Below, in pieces: positions 1,262 through 6,306 of a DNA stretch of 6,306 bases. Positions within the stretch are counted from its first letter, which is position 1, and every line of letters starts with the position of its first letter. The stretch spans positions 1 to 6,306 of the forward strand of contig JAUUZS010000267.1 of NCBI GenBank assembly GCA_030589835.1. The letters are read 5' to 3'. The DNA is from Cyclobacteriaceae bacterium (GTDB taxonomy: Bacteria > Bacteroidota > Bacteroidia > Cytophagales > Cyclobacteriaceae). The notes below the pieces were generated by a model, which had not been told where the DNA came from, did not search any database, and saw only the letters and a list, made by a program, of their open reading frames with translations. The position numbers and the translations under genes are program-made.

Positions 1262-2125
1262 TCAATCTTTCTTAAAAATCATCGATAGCCCTTTTTCAAA
1301 TGTTTTGGCACAGAGTAAAAGTGAAAATTGAGATAAGGTGTAGTTAACGAGAAATAAATCACCATTCATACTTACAATACCTTTTGCCCTGACCAATTGG
1401 GATCCTTGACTTAGGAGGTAGGTATGCAATGCGTCCCGGCTTTCAAAATCCAATTCTTCGTCAACCTGAATCGCATTATAATCATGAGATTCCAGCGGTC
1501 CGATTTCAATTTTCGTTGATTTTATTTCTGAATATTCTGCCGATGCGCACATTATCTTATCAGCGTTTTTATCTTTTATAAAATAAAAATATGCAGCATT
1601 AGGATTGATATCCAGCAAGGCTCTTTTAACTTCCTGCAATTCCCTCTCCGACAGACTTTCAACCAGGTTGAGCACTATTTTCTCACTCATCGCAATTTGT
1701 CGTTTAATGAAGGGAGGCCATCTTTTCTTTATTTTAAAATAAAGATTGACATCGATCAATTGAATTAAGGGCTCAAGAATGAGATTAATGGATATTGAAG
1801 GGTCTTCGAATAGATCGGTGATCACATCAGGAATTAGTATTCCCGAGGGCTCGATCAGGATTCTGTCGAGATCATCACGCGTGCTACAATCTACGAGTAT
1901 TTCCCTGAAGCGCATTTTCAGATCACAGCAGAGACAGCCATAGGTGATTGCCAGGATTTCCCGGACATTTTCTTCTAGCGACAATGCATCGTAATTAACT
2001 TTCCCAAAGTCGTTGACAATCAGCAGTATTCTCTCTTTTTTGCCAATCGAAGAATTCAGAAAAGACTGAATAAAGGTCGTCTTGCCTGACCCCAGGTAAC
2101 CCATAATAAAATTTACCTTGATCAC
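1262..2125 (-). CDS. CobW/COG0523-family (G3E) P-loop metallochaperone-like protein
   Basis: A 287-residue protein of the CobW/HypB/UreG (G3E) family, whose members use nucleotide hydrolysis to deliver metals such as zinc or cobalt to client enzymes. Visible are the Walker A loop GYLGSGKTT (residues 9-17), the COG0523-type VNDFGKVNYD segment (37-46), the metal-binding CxCC motif GCLCC (63-67), the IEPSGI motif (91-96), and a CobW C-terminal-like domain from about 200 with RAKGIV (246-251). The guanine-specificity motif, normally NKxD, appears as NLVE (153-156), so nucleotide preference may be altered. The GTG start at 2125 is chosen because the first beta strand, IKVNFIM, must precede the P-loop and no suitable upstream ATG is in frame. 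It overlaps the RACo stop by four bases (GTGA), implying coupled translation. Sitting last in the methanol cluster it may supply zinc to MtaB or help corrinoid activation; both roles are inference. Confidence 0.85.
   Translation of the reverse strand: MIKVNFIMGYLGSGKTTFIQSFLNSSIGKKERILLIVNDFGKVNYDALSLEENVREILAITYGCLCCDLKMRFREILVDCSTRDDLDRILIEPSGILIPDVITDLFEDPSISINLILEPLIQLIDVNLYFKIKKRWPPFIKRQIAMSEKIVLNLVESLSERELQEVKRALLDINPNAAYFYFIKDKNADKIMCASAEYSEIKSTKIEIGPLESHDYNAIQVDEELDFESRDALHTYLLSQGSQLVRAKGIVSMNGDLFLVNYTLSQFSLLLCAKTFEKGLSMIFKKD
2122..2125 (-). other. GTGA start/stop overlap (translational coupling)
   Basis: On the minus strand the RACo reading frame ends GAA ATG TGA, and the CobW-like frame begins with the GTG formed by the same bases. 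This four-base overlap usually means that ribosomes finishing the first gene reinitiate on the second, so the two proteins are probably made in fixed proportion. Confidence 0.75.
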
Positions 2126-3633
2126 ATTTCAACAGGTTCAAACATCATATTCATGGCAAAATCCAAAGCAAAGTCCTCGTACCCGGACAATTCGATGTAC
2201 CGCGTTCGTTGCAATAAATCACGGATGACCTCATCAAACTGAACGGATTTTAACGCCAGTACAGCGCCTGTTCCTGAGGTATTGCCAAGCGCTACGATTT
2301 TGTCTTTAAACTCGGGCGAGATCAAACCAATTTTCATGGCGCTTTCTGTATTAATATAATTCCCGAAACCACCAGCCAGGAAAACCGTATCGATTTCATT
2401 GTAGTTTAACTCTGCTTCTTTAAGAAGGATTTTTACTCCTGCGGCGATGGCAGATTTAGCCAACTGCAGCTCCCTGATATCCTGTTGAGTAATGGAGATA
2501 AGCGTTGCATTGCCGGATAGATCGGCAGGCACAACAACAAATTCCTCTTCCAATAAACCATCGGCTGACACGAGTTTATTTTCTACCAAATGCGCCACGA
2601 TATCTATCAATCCTGATCCGCATATACCCGTTGGCAGCGTATCCCCAATCACCGTATAATCGGAAGGGTCGTAAACAGAAATCGCTCCTTCCATGGCCCC
2701 CATGCCACAAGATATCTTTGCCCCCTCCAATGCCGGGCCGGCAGCTGTGGCACAGCAAATAATTTCTTTTTCCGTAACCAGCGCCAGTTCCCCGTTTGTA
2801 CCCAAATCCATAAAAAGATACCTTGCCCGCTCTTCTGATCCTGCTATGGAAGCAATTCCCGAAACAATATCCGCCCCGATGTAGGCAGAAATGGAGGGCA
2901 ATAGTTTAATTTCCCCATCTGCATGACAATGAAGATTAAGCTCTTTTCCTTTTAATATCTGCTCATCCGTAAATTTGGGAGTGAAAGGAGCTAAAGCAAT
3001 TGACAATGGGTCTACACCTAGCAATAGGTGCAGCATAGTGGTGTTACCGGATACGGTTATTTTTACAATCTCATCTGAGGTGATTTGGGAGAGTTCAACA
3101 AAATGATCCAATTGTTCATTGATGGAATCCAGTAGTACTTTTTGCAATTCCTGTAACCCTCCCTCCTTCTCAGAGGCATAGCTGATCCTGGAAATCACAT
3201 CACCGCCAAATTGAGCCTGAGGGTTGAGTACAGCCCTGGTTTCGACAACAGATCCCATGACTAAGTTCACCAGATAAAAAACAAGGCTTGTTGTTCCCAA
3301 ATCAATCGCCACTCCATGAGGCAAATAGGACAATCCCATTGATGGCCCGGGATTGAATGGTACGGATAGCGTGTGCACATGTTGGTCTACCAGAATCTGA
3401 GCCTCCTTTATATCGGGAAGAATAATCTCCATAGATTCAGTTACATGATGGACACATGCTGTAATTGACCCTTCTCCTTTTTGCCAGACTTTGCATTTTC
3501 CGCATGTGCCATTTCCTCCGCAAGGAGTGAATAGCTCAAATCCATGCGTTCTCAAAATTTGCAACAGCGAGTCGTTGCCTTCCGTTTCTATCGTGCTTAT
3601 TTCATCCTGACGATGAACCTTGATTTCAAGCAT
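2122..3633 (-). CDS. RACo-type reductive activator of corrinoid proteins (2Fe-2S/ASKHA ATPase)
   Basis: Restores corrinoid proteins whose cobalt has been oxidised to inactive Co(II) by reducing it to Co(I) with coupled ATP hydrolysis. An N-terminal ferredoxin-like domain carries a plant-type 2Fe-2S motif: Cys38, Cys44 and Cys47 in CGGNGTCGKC, then Cys60. From about residue 105 follows the DUF4445 ASKHA ATPase: AIDLGTTSLVFYLV (109-122), VSGNTTMLHLLLG (194-206), MDLGTNGELAL (275-285), the segment 293-319 with paired cysteines and GPALEGA, TGICGSGLIDIV (335-346), FLAGGFGNYI (418-427) and LGNTSGTGAVLAL (449-461). The N-terminal 2Fe-2S cluster separates it from archaeal RamA, which has C-terminal 4Fe-4S clusters. 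At 503 residues it is shorter than the Carboxydothermus protein (about 630 from memory); the linker between ferredoxin and ATPase parts looks reduced. It lies 72 bp after the corrinoid protein, its likely client. No Shine-Dalgarno sequence precedes the ATG. Confidence 0.92.
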   Translation of the reverse strand: MLEIKVHRQDEISTIETEGNDSLLQILRTHGFELFTPCGGNGTCGKCKVWQKGEGSITACVHHVTESMEIILPDIKEAQILVDQHVHTLSVPFNPGPSMGLSYLPHGVAIDLGTTSLVFYLVNLVMGSVVETRAVLNPQAQFGGDVISRISYASEKEGGLQELQKVLLDSINEQLDHFVELSQITSDEIVKITVSGNTTMLHLLLGVDPLSIALAPFTPKFTDEQILKGKELNLHCHADGEIKLLPSISAYIGADIVSGIASIAGSEERARYLFMDLGTNGELALVTEKEIICCATAAGPALEGAKISCGMGAMEGAISVYDPSDYTVIGDTLPTGICGSGLIDIVAHLVENKLVSADGLLEEEFVVVPADLSGNATLISITQQDIRELQLAKSAIAAGVKILLKEAELNYNEIDTVFLAGGFGNYINTESAMKIGLISPEFKDKIVALGNTSGTGAVLALKSVQFDEVIRDLLQRTRYIELSGYEDFALDFAMNMMFEPVEM

Positions 3634-3705
3634 TTATAGCGTAAATGTTCAATAAAATTATTATTAAAAAAGAGAATAAAAAGGCAGTGCAAAGCAGATT
3701 ACCCT

Positions 3706-4374
3706 TTAAGCGACAAGGTCGTTCAAAAATTTCACCGCCCCTTGTGGATCGGAAGAATAGTGGTCTGCGCCGATCCGATTGCAAAAATCCTCACTTACAG
3801 GTGCGCCGCCAACCAGCACTTTTGTGTCATTATTTACATTTTTAACCTCCGATACGATGCTCTCCATATTCACCATTGTGGTGGTCAGTAAGGCAGATAA
3901 TCCTATTACACAGCCGGGGTTTGCCTTGACTGCCTCGACAAAATTTTCTGCCGTCACATCCACGCCCAAATCGATCACTTCCCATCCTGCACCTTCAACC
4001 ATCATGCCTACAAGGTTCTTTCCGATATCGTGCAAATCACCTGCGACAGTTCCCAGGACGAATTTGCCTTTTCGCTTTACGGCTCCTGACTGAAAAAATG
4101 GCTTGATATGTTCCATGGCAGTGCTCATAGCCTTAGCGGACATCAACATCTGAGGGACGAAAACCTTATTTTCCGAAAACTTTTGCCCCACTTTATCCAT
4201 ACCTACCACCATGGCTTCATTGAGTATTGCATCAGGATCAATCCCCTCATCAATGGCTTGCTTTGTCAGCTCGTCTGCGCCGACCTCGCCTTTCATATTG
4301 GGTGGATATGGGGAGGCTAGATTAATTTTTCCAAATTCAATGCAAATCGCAATCTTTTCTATTAATTCACTCAT
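3706..4374 (-). CDS. mtaC: Methanol corrinoid protein (MtaC-like cobalamin carrier)
   Basis: A 222-residue corrinoid protein that carries the methyl group on cobalt. Residues about 1-95 form the helical B12-binding_2 cap domain (LNEAMVVGMDKVGQKF at 51-66, then VFVPQMLMSAKAM at 71-83). Residues 103-222 form the Rossmann-like B12-binding domain. The cobalamin signature is intact: GDLHDIGKN (112-120) with His115 as the lower axial cobalt ligand, Ser160 and Leu162 in GLSALL, and Gly189-Gly190 in VLVGGAP. The size fits the MtaC/MtbC/MttC family. Sequence alone cannot tell these subtypes apart; the methanol assignment rests on mtaB lying directly upstream on the same strand, 84 bp away. It is the expected partner of MtaB for methylation and of RACo for reactivation. 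The ATG at 4374 follows an A/T-rich leader without a Shine-Dalgarno sequence. Confidence 0.9.
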   Translation of the reverse strand: MSELIEKIAICIEFGKINLASPYPPNMKGEVGADELTKQAIDEGIDPDAILNEAMVVGMDKVGQKFSENKVFVPQMLMSAKAMSTAMEHIKPFFQSGAVKRKGKFVLGTVAGDLHDIGKNLVGMMVEGAGWEVIDLGVDVTAENFVEAVKANPGCVIGLSALLTTTMVNMESIVSEVKNVNNDTKVLVGGAPVSEDFCNRIGADHYSSDPQGAVKFLNDLVA

Positions 4375-4396
4375 GACTATATTTTATATGTATGTT

Positions 4397-4424
4397 CTGC
4401 TTTTTATGTACTGCTTTTTATGTA
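4397..4424. repeat. Perfect 14-bp tandem duplication between mtaB and mtaC
   Basis: The unit ctgctttttatgta occurs twice with no gap (4397-4410 and 4411-4424). It lies in the 84-bp mtaB-mtaC spacer, ending 22 bases upstream of the mtaC ATG on the minus strand. It is probably a replication-slippage duplication. It lengthens the A/T-rich leader and might change mRNA stability or the relative expression of MtaB and MtaC; no such effect can be shown from sequence. Confidence 0.85.
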
Positions 4425-4458
4425 CTAATTATATGTAATCAATTTCTCCCGAATTTAA

Positions 4459-5838
4459 TCAAGTGAGGCCATATTCACTTAAAATTAATTTATTTTGATC
4501 GATTGTCGGCAACACTTGCTCAATGAAATCTGACTCGTTATGCGGAATCGTTGAGATATCATCCCTGATCATATGTAGCCATTCATCTTCTTTTTCATCT
4601 CGCATCAATATCCCTGCTTTCATTCCTTCATCGATCAATTCAATTGCCTTTAAACACGCTTTTCGCGTTGAATCTACATAATTTTCTCCACTTACAATTT
4701 CTTTTGAAATTTCTATTACATTTTTTGGAGATAATATAAAGGCCTGTGGGTCAAAATATATGTCTGAATCAACAAATAATTTTTGCAAACCAAGTACAGC
4801 ATTTTTTCCTCCTTTGATCGCCTGATTCATAAGTCTCACATCATATTCCAACTGTTCCAGATAAATAGTTGGAGCCATACCGGCCAGCAATTTTACATTT
4901 TGTACCGATTCATTGCTCCACAGGTCTGCACATGCCGCAGCGATATTTCCTACAGGACTAAGGTGTGCACAAGCCGCCGTCTTTCCTTCCATAGAAATCG
5001 GAATGCCTGCAATGGCTTTTAGAAATGGGCCTTCATATCCACAATCCTTATCAGGGCCTTTGGCTCCTTGTTCGAAGGCCACCAGTGACCGGGCAATGGT
5101 CGCCACTCTGGCAATAGCAGCAAATAGCTTTGGGATATATTTTTTCTCTGCCAACACCATGGCGGTGTTGCCAAATCCACAGGCAGTATCTCCTCCGGGG
5201 ATGGTCCCCGTATTGTTGGCTATGGTCACGATCTTTCCCCACAGCATCTCCATATCCCTGGCACCAAGTACGGCTTGCGAAAATATGAATTGCTTTATGT
5301 CGCACATCATAAGGGCATCATCAGAAATTTCTTTGCCTCCCGTTGATTCAATGGACAGGAAATTGCCACCGGCTTCTGCTCCTTTTTCAAACAATTCCAA
5401 CATAGGATCAAGGAGTGTGGAGGTCCTTTGCCTGGCGGGCCGCTCAAACTCCCGCAAATCATTTGGCGTAAGCCGGATTTCACTTTTTAGATTGTGCTTT
5501 GCATAATAGTCTTCGCATATATCATTCATTTCTTTGATAAGGGTGATGCCGAGATCTGGATTTTGAGTCATCTCAATGAGTGTTTCAAATTCGAGTACCA
5601 CCCCGTTGGAATACAGTTGTACGGCCCTTTCCAGGGCTCCTGAAACGATTTGCTTATAATGATTTATAACTTGTGAATAGTCCTTTGCATCAATTTTCAT
5701 TTCCGGCAAGGTAAAGTTCAATTCGGGATACACAATCCCTCCACCAATTTCCAAACCTCTTCTCGTTTTTACCGGGTTTGGGGCATGGCCAAAAATCAGA
5801 TCCTTTTCATTGTCAATAGCAAGCCTATTAAATTTCAT
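4459..5838 (-). CDS. mtaB: Methanol:corrinoid methyltransferase MtaB
   Basis: The 459-residue zinc enzyme that activates methanol and transfers its methyl group to Co(I) of the corrinoid protein, forming methyl-Co(III). It aligns by eye along its whole length with Methanosarcina barkeri MtaB as I remember it. Shared blocks are LEIGGGIVYPELNF (29-42), FLSIESTGGKE (160-170), DMEMLW (195-200), GTIPGGDTACGFGNTAM (211-227), RSLVAFEQGAKGPDKDCGYE (250-269), MEGKTAACAH (283-292) and DLWSNESVQ (305-313). The three zinc ligands of the M. barkeri enzyme (Glu164, Cys220, Cys269) correspond to Glu164, Cys220 and Cys266, so catalytic competence is expected. Length is normal for the family. It is the first gene of the cluster after the LacI-type regulator. 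The ATG at 5838 gives a full-length N-terminus and is preceded by an A/T-rich leader without a Shine-Dalgarno sequence. The enzyme should be cytoplasmic, working in a complex with MtaC. Confidence 0.95.
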   Translation of the reverse strand: MKFNRLAIDNEKDLIFGHAPNPVKTRRGLEIGGGIVYPELNFTLPEMKIDAKDYSQVINHYKQIVSGALERAVQLYSNGVVLEFETLIEMTQNPDLGITLIKEMNDICEDYYAKHNLKSEIRLTPNDLREFERPARQRTSTLLDPMLELFEKGAEAGGNFLSIESTGGKEISDDALMMCDIKQFIFSQAVLGARDMEMLWGKIVTIANNTGTIPGGDTACGFGNTAMVLAEKKYIPKLFAAIARVATIARSLVAFEQGAKGPDKDCGYEGPFLKAIAGIPISMEGKTAACAHLSPVGNIAAACADLWSNESVQNVKLLAGMAPTIYLEQLEYDVRLMNQAIKGGKNAVLGLQKLFVDSDIYFDPQAFILSPKNVIEISKEIVSGENYVDSTRKACLKAIELIDEGMKAGILMRDEKEDEWLHMIRDDISTIPHNESDFIEQVLPTIDQNKLILSEYGLT

Positions 5839-5939: not shown

Positions 5940-6003
5940 CCTTCAATCATTCTCCCATTCTCTCATTCTCTCATTCAATCATTCTCTCATTCTCCCATTC
6001 ATT
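5940..6003. repeat. Eight tandem 8-bp units (cattctct-type)
   Basis: Eight imperfect octamers lie in exact 8-base phase. They are variants of cattctct, with last letters tcc, tct, aat or att; the first unit reads ccttcaat. The tract starts at 5940 and ends at 6003. On the minus strand it is purine-rich (agagaatg) and lies between the LacI-type stop and the mtaB leader. Unit length is not a multiple of three and no protein is encoded. It looks like slippage-prone DNA whose copy number could vary between strains and alter spacing upstream of mtaB. Confidence 0.85.
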
Positions 6004-6007
6004 AAAC

Positions 6008-6306
6008 CTAAGTTCCCCTTACAATCAGTTTTGGTTGAATGATATGCTGTTCATATGGGCCGCTCACTTTCCTGTTATCAATAAGCGATGCGGTTTGTGC
6101 GGCCATCTCATCATACAAACAATCGACCACAGAAATTTCAGGATCAAACAACCTGGTCAATTCGGTATTGCCATAATTCACAACCTTCACTTCATCCGGA
6201 ACAGATATGTTCCACTTCTTTAGCCTTCCCAATACTTTGATGGCGTCCACATCGGAGCAGCACAACACGCCCCTGATTTTATGCGCTTTTATAAAGTCCC
6301 TGCTCA
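6008..6306 (-). CDS. LacI-family transcriptional regulator, C-terminal part (partial)
   Basis: The last 98 residues of a LacI/PurR-type regulator; the frame stays open to the right edge, so the DNA-binding helix-turn-helix and most of the effector domain are outside the window. The fragment fits the end of the periplasmic-binding-protein-like effector domain: GVLCCSDVDAIKVLGRLKKW (the usual 'nD..A.gvl..l' segment), then ISVPDEVKVVNYGNTEL (usual 'vPddv.vvgf.n'), DPEISVVD, and the closing QPKLIVRGT. The GTG at 6268 is an internal codon in this reading, not the start. The gene lies on the same strand as mtaB and ends 169 bp upstream of it, so it may be cotranscribed with, or regulate, the methanol genes. 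Its ligand cannot be deduced; the family usually senses sugars or nucleobases. Confidence 0.85.
   Translation of the reverse strand, partial: SRDFIKAHKIRGVLCCSDVDAIKVLGRLKKWNISVPDEVKVVNYGNTELTRLFDPEISVVDCLYDEMAAQTASLIDNRKVSGPYEQHIIQPKLIVRGT

Follow-up and report, generated by a model that had tools for sequence, protein, structure and literature searches.

The stretch of DNA analysed here (the window) is 6,306 nucleotides long and comes from a Cyclobacteriaceae bacterium (contig JAUUZS010000267.1). The original prediction of four same-strand genes between 1262 and 5838 held, as four complete minus-strand ORFs fill that span (Table 1). The gaps are 84 bp between mtaB and mtaC and 72 bp between mtaC and the RACo gene, and the RACo and CobW genes overlap by 4 bp. 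A regulator fragment lies upstream of mtaB on the same strand. Its full-length relative in the nearest locus, L001 (4937-5965), is a GntR plus Peripla_BP_3 protein with 81.6% identity over 98 aa. An imperfect 8-base tandem repeat, TCATTCTC, is present in 6.8 copies at 5947-6000 between the regulator and mtaB, and GAATGA-type repeats resembling it were seen upstream of mtaB in L001. A 14-base tandem repeat (2.6 copies, 4391-4426) occupies part of the mtaB-mtaC gap. On the plus strand, a 212-aa ORF at 3-641, open at the window edge, matched nothing in Pfam or NCBIfam at E 0.001. The window contained no Rfam family and no tRNA. The promoter scan (13 vs. 16.9 ± 4.6 in shuffles) and the terminator scan (7 vs. 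5.4 ± 2.4) both stayed within the shuffle range. We scanned six ORFs of the window against Pfam and NCBIfam; the remaining listed ORFs overlap these genes. No acceptor methyltransferase was found among the six, in agreement with the earlier statement that the window has neither MtaA nor a folate methyltransferase. Judged by its genes, the window is a predicted bacterial methanol demethylation module.

Table 1. Genes of the window, with strand, predicted product length and domain matches
Feature	Position	Strand	Details
mtaB, methanol:corrinoid methyltransferase	4459..5838	-	459 aa; PF12176 E 6e-162
mtaC, corrinoid carrier protein	3706..4374	-	222 aa; B12-binding E 4e-26, B12-binding_2 E 2e-18
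RACo/RACE-type ATP-dependent corrinoid reductive activase	2122..3633	-	503 aa; RACo_C_ter E 5e-68, Raco_middle E 4e-54
CobW/COG0523-type GTPase	1262..2125	-	287 aa; GTG start; PF02492 E 8e-34
Regulator C-terminal end, Peripla_BP_3, cut by window edge	6008..6304	-	Pfam match

All four proteins keep their motifs. MtaB matched PF12176 at full length (540 bits, positions 3-459 of 460) and the solved Methanosarcina MtaB (2i2x_A) with 276 bits. Its E164, C220 and C266 align with a Glu, a Cys and a Cys of that structure, which we take to be the zinc ligands. Against the NCBIfam equivalog MtaB_Meth, a model named for the methanogen enzyme, it scored 416.8 bits (cut-off 720). MtaC, whose best solved relative is 1y80, keeps the DxHxxG motif as DLHDIG at 113. 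RACo carries the N-terminal 2Fe-2S motif C-x5-C-x2-C at 38 and two DLGT motifs, and it matched the solved 3zyy with 265 bits; its N-terminal Fer2 match (20.8 bits) fell 0.2 bit under the Pfam cut-off of 21. CobW has the Walker A sequence GYLGSGKT and a CLCC (CxCC motif), and is possibly a metal chaperone.

MtaB relatives are encoded in 244 genome-contig stretches, and the best 80 of the 244 were kept as loci. Three of them (L067, L070 and L071) gave no MtaB ORF and were left out of the locus counts (n = 77). ORFs were called greedily by length, and each took the name of whichever of a few queries it matched best in phmmer; the locus labels are therefore rough. A CobW gene was found within 10 ORFs of mtaB in 28/77 loci, drawn from the best 80 of 244. 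The nearest locus, L001, belongs to a Bacteroidetes MAG and shares 89.8% (MtaB), 88.3% (MtaC) and 80.5% (RACo) identity with the window; for CobW the values are 76.6% and 50.4% over two pieces. Regulator, MtaB, MtaC, RACo and CobW follow in the same order as in the window, with an extra PNPOx-like ORF between MtaC and RACo. By the rough phmmer-based labels, none of the 17 ORFs of L001 is an acceptor. Its CobW is present as two ORFs in one frame (10798-11664), and in L005 MtaC is split over two ORFs (11396-12063); assembly error or decay may account for each.

In an MtaB tree of 90 rows, the window and L001 fell within a 13-row set (100/96), adjoining Cytophagales and Cyclobacteriaceae MAGs, and Moorella MtaB grouped in the same family tree. 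The tree and the L001 identities support a bacterial host of Bacteroidota type. The mtaB genes of L068 and L074, both labelled Bifidobacteriaceae, grouped with that of Tannerella, by transfer or misbinning. The family of Draconibacterium aestuarii (G007) has mtaB in 29/140 genomes; therefore Bacteroidota is not the unusual lineage for this system that had been supposed. In the portions of published reports available, mtaB is recorded for 1.6% of the MAGs from a floodplain (PMC11264602) and also for MAGs of Spirochaetaceae and Anaerolineae (PMC11279179), and mtaBCA or mtaABC is named for archaea or Deltaproteobacteria (PMC12203004, PMC5863793).

We searched 48 mtaB genomes, drawn from the 80 loci kept, for a methyl acceptor. 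Two were Bacillota, two were Spirochaetes and 44 were neither; 39 of the 44 are labelled Bacteroidota and five Ignavibacteriota or Deferribacteres. Most of the 48 are MAGs, whose sequences may be incomplete. Besides MetH, 34/44 genomes, including the nearest genome, G001, encode a stand-alone PF02574 protein of about 295 aa. One genome (G038) has a fused 621-aa form, and 9/44 have neither form. Among the matches listed, the PF02574 gene lies at most 6 kb from an MtaC-type carrier in 14/34 genomes. In L011, MtaB, MtaC, the PF02574 protein and a PF02965 protein are encoded in a row on one strand; the successive gaps are 34 bp and 32 bp, followed by an overlap. The PF02574 protein of L011 scored 180 bits with Thermotoga maritima MetH vs. 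71 bits with betaine-homocysteine methyltransferase. GxNC and GGCCGT are kept in 22/23 homologues; the single miss (L114) has a longer N-terminus, and its motifs may lie outside the scan window. A narrower homocysteine zinc-site pattern fitted 15/23, and 22/23 when any residue was allowed before NC. For the PF02965 protein, a model built from an alignment of 15 (mean pLDDT 88) best matched 1j6r, the stand-alone T. maritima MetH activation domain (E 3e-13; TM 0.87 by target length). The L011 protein (12937-13689) and its 14 MetH-activation-like homologues have invariant Cys residues, numbered 181, 233, 236 and 241 in L011, which may form an iron-sulfur site.

The mtaB locus of G016 (L009) lacks mtaC, and the only carrier match outside MetH in that genome, among the matches listed, lies on a different contig, next to a PF02574 gene. 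G001 has its PF02574 and PF02965 genes together at C105, alongside URO-D proteins; the listed PF02607 matches of this genome are MetH, the MtaC of the mta locus and a 298-aa protein. Co-regulation of the G001 mta locus and the C105 cluster was considered and dropped: each starts with a regulator of the GntR plus Peripla_BP_3 type, but the two regulators share just 23% identity. No operator shared by the two was seen by eye. In five other loci (L103 6770-11758, L101, L102, L106 and L107), genes of 359-395 and 516-655 aa come after those for the homocysteine enzyme and the reactivation protein. The two in L103 encode a class II aldolase-like protein and a PD40-OmpA protein, and an arabinofuranosidase-like gene lies upstream.

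We next give the co-occurrence of these genes in the 140 genomes of the G007 family, with an MtaC-type carrier scored at E <= 1e-40 and p values that treat genomes as independent, ignoring kinship. Genomes with at least two PF02574 matches were counted as having a second PF02574 locus; G020, G148 and G151 (one stand-alone-level match) were added and G026 (two MetH fragments) was removed. These loci were mostly counted rather than individually inspected, and their counts here hold among the matches listed. A second PF02574 locus and a carrier occurred as 81/5/13/41 (both/locus only/carrier only/neither; odds ratio 51, p 1.7e-18), and as 57/5/9/40 (p 5e-16) when the mtaB genomes were excluded. 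The PF02965 reactivation protein behaved likewise with the carrier (86/6/8/40, p 1.2e-20, 140 genomes). In 16 mtaB genomes, the sole carrier at this cut-off is the one beside mtaB on the mtaB contig; 13/16 of them have a second PF02574 locus vs. 5/46 carrier-less genomes, and 15/16 have a PF02965 protein vs. 6/46. Given a carrier, mtaB and the second PF02574 locus showed no added association (24/57/4/9, p 1.0). A homocysteine enzyme specific to mtaB was rejected, the second locus being present in 24/29 mtaB genomes and also in 62/111 others. The second PF02574 locus is thus linked to the carrier rather than to mtaB. Because mtaB adds no association once the carrier is present, the homocysteine enzyme may serve other donors.

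Our best reading, drawn from the relatives, is that a stand-alone homocysteine methyltransferase of MetH type, with its gene elsewhere in the genome, would demethylate methyl-MtaC and so make methionine; we put the chance of this at about even. Several observations count against it. One of the nine genomes without a stand-alone or fused homocysteine enzyme is that of Sunxiuqinia indica (G009); its record bears no MAG label, and it encodes two carriers and a PF02965 protein. The PF02574 gene is within 10 ORFs of mtaB in only 4/77 loci. Furthermore, MetH is present in most of these mtaB genomes, so methionine could be made without methanol and is not in need. Titles and abstract openings, mostly from outside subscription journals, showed none tying an MtaB of Bacteroidota to homocysteine.

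The main rival acceptor is an MtaA-like URO-D protein, which would transfer the methyl group of MtaC to some thiol that is not free homocysteine, in the way that MtaA uses coenzyme M. In nine loci (L024, L025, L026, L027, L032, L033, L047, L054 and L076) a URO-D protein is encoded between mtaC and mtaB; its HNCGN and (T/S)GCDxPP motifs resemble the MtaA zinc site, where these residues are presumably the zinc ligands. The best NCBIfam models for the URO-D proteins of mta loci are the MtaA/CmuA ones, but the scores fall below all NCBIfam cut-offs (in L032, 129 vs. 235 for mtaA_cmuA). Eleven Bacteroidota-type mtaB genomes encode 2 to 16 URO-D proteins each, and in G001 one adjoins the homocysteine enzyme; such presence says little, however, as URO-D proteins also act with methyl donors and in haem synthesis. 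By the rough labels, neither the window nor the mta loci L001-L005 have a URO-D acceptor. We consider this alternative unlikely, at roughly half the weight of the homocysteine reading. URO-D proteins of about 540 aa adjoin an MtaC-type carrier and a homocysteine enzyme in L096 (4469-6091), L094 (4714-6333), L114 (7071-8690) and L116 (6172-7791); the one in L096 has a thioredoxin domain at its C-terminus.

The original prediction had the methyl group enter folate through an enzyme encoded elsewhere, the route used by acetogens. The relatives did not bear this out. A PF00809 search found no stand-alone MtgA/MtvA-type protein in 43/44 of the genomes that are neither Bacillota nor Spirochaetes. 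The sole MtgA-type protein among the 44, in G019 (L118 4863-5663), speaks for the folate route; the rest have only FolP-type and MetH-type PF00809 matches, with an extra FolP-like fragment in G033. The same search returned three stand-alone MtgA-type proteins in Moorella (G012) and two in G046. An MtgA gene was within 10 ORFs of mtaB in 0/72 non-Bacillota loci vs. 3/5 Bacillota-labelled ones. On the PF00809 searches, run on 12 and then on 48 genomes, an acetogen-type folate acceptor was set aside. The look for acetyl-CoA synthase (PF03598) in relatives was no kinder to the prediction: it was missing from 47/48 mtaB genomes, all 44 included, and present in the Moorella control, so acetogenesis was set aside as well. 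What is left of the folate route is transfer to tetrahydrofolate by a divergent folate methyltransferase or by MetH in reverse, followed by oxidation or assimilation. Most of the mtaB genomes searched do encode a MetH with a pterin domain, but its reversal is thermodynamically poor, and we regard the route as improbable.

It is very improbable that the substrate of the module is something else than methanol, or that the module is a side branch for detoxification or regulation: the 417 bits of MtaB against the curated NCBIfam methanogen-MtaB cut-off of 720 would allow it, but the Pfam match is full length, the catalytic residues are kept and Moorella MtaB belongs to the same family tree.

Returning to methionine as the product, the route could run as follows. 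From family membership, MtaB would cleave methanol at its zinc site and methylate the Co(I) of MtaC, and RACo would use ATP and an electron donor to return oxidised MtaC to Co(I). For CobW, supply of a metal is probable; a role as zinc chaperone for MtaB is a guess. As the relatives suggest, the homocysteine enzyme would take the methyl group from MtaC to form methionine, and the MetH-type reactivation protein may act in addition to, or instead of, RACo. In effect, the modules of a B12-dependent methionine synthase would be separated, and a methanol-using one would stand in for the folate module. More generally, and with slightly less confidence than in the route itself, we propose that Bacteroidota may have a folate-free, methanol-fed methionine synthase. 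It would consist of MtaB and MtaC together with a homocysteine subunit of MetH type and, for reactivation, either a MetH-type protein or RACo; in some cases, as in L011, one operon would encode it. Such an enzyme would link methanol from plant cell walls directly to methionine.

Methanogens and acetogens are the organisms to which methanol use without oxygen is usually ascribed. If Bacteroidota, which are major degraders of plant and algal polysaccharides, strip the methyl group from methanol, they would be competitors for it, and a metagenomic mtaB could not be taken as a sign of methanogenesis or acetogenesis. Were homocysteine the acceptor, there would be a direct route from methanol to methionine that bypasses folate, and the modules of methionine synthase would be exchangeable for other methyl-donor enzymes. 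Draconibacterium aestuarii and Sunxiuqinia indica are cultured hosts (records not labelled MAG) and make the route testable.

Finally, we compared the module with known systems. In methanogens, MtaA passes the methyl group to coenzyme M. The window shares the MtaB fold, its catalytic residues and the MtaC carrier with methanogen MtaABC (2i2x). It differs in its bacterial host, in the absence of MtaA (also from L001 by the rough labels) and in a RACo with 2Fe-2S instead of archaeal RamA. The acetogen system, e.g., that of Moorella (L077, G012), likewise has mtaB and mtaC adjacent, but with a 266-aa pterin-type protein beside them and acetyl-CoA synthase; 43/44 relatives lack a stand-alone pterin-type protein and 44/44 lack acetyl-CoA synthase. 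With respect to what defines a split B12-dependent methionine synthase, PF02574 is not in the window and is in 34/44 relatives, and the pterin module is absent in 43/44. In the available text of Mausz et al., a carrier of Ruegeria pomeroyi is common to glycine betaine demethylation and to a split methionine synthase with a pterin subunit (PMC12478193). That MtgBCDE system resembles our proposal in that a stand-alone carrier serves a demethylase and a homocysteine subunit; there, the donor is glycine betaine and pterin-binding MtgD links to folate, whereas here the donor enzyme is MtaB and 43/44 relatives have no such subunit. Price et al., in the sections accessible, describe a split methionine synthase of Phaeobacter inhibens in which a RamA-like protein reactivates B12 (PMC5764234); it is in pieces, as proposed here, but folate is the donor and there is no MtaB. 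The mlp clusters, in the part of the article of Kountz and Balskus at hand (PMC10418091), consist of MtaA-like proteins, a corrinoid protein and a RACE protein, without a folate methyltransferase. Type 1 clusters are like the window in having a corrinoid protein and a RACE activase and in lacking a folate methyltransferase; they have at least two MtaA-like proteins, whereas the six scanned window ORFs include none. A methyl-sulfur or methyl-selenide role is proposed for them, MtaB is named only for methanogens, and 'bacteroid' has 0 occurrences in this text. The core methionine synthases MesA-D are proposed, in the excerpted text of Price et al. (PMC7857596), to take the methyl group from a corrinoid protein without folate. 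They are relatives of MetE, whereas the homocysteine enzyme considered here is a PF02574 protein of MetH type.
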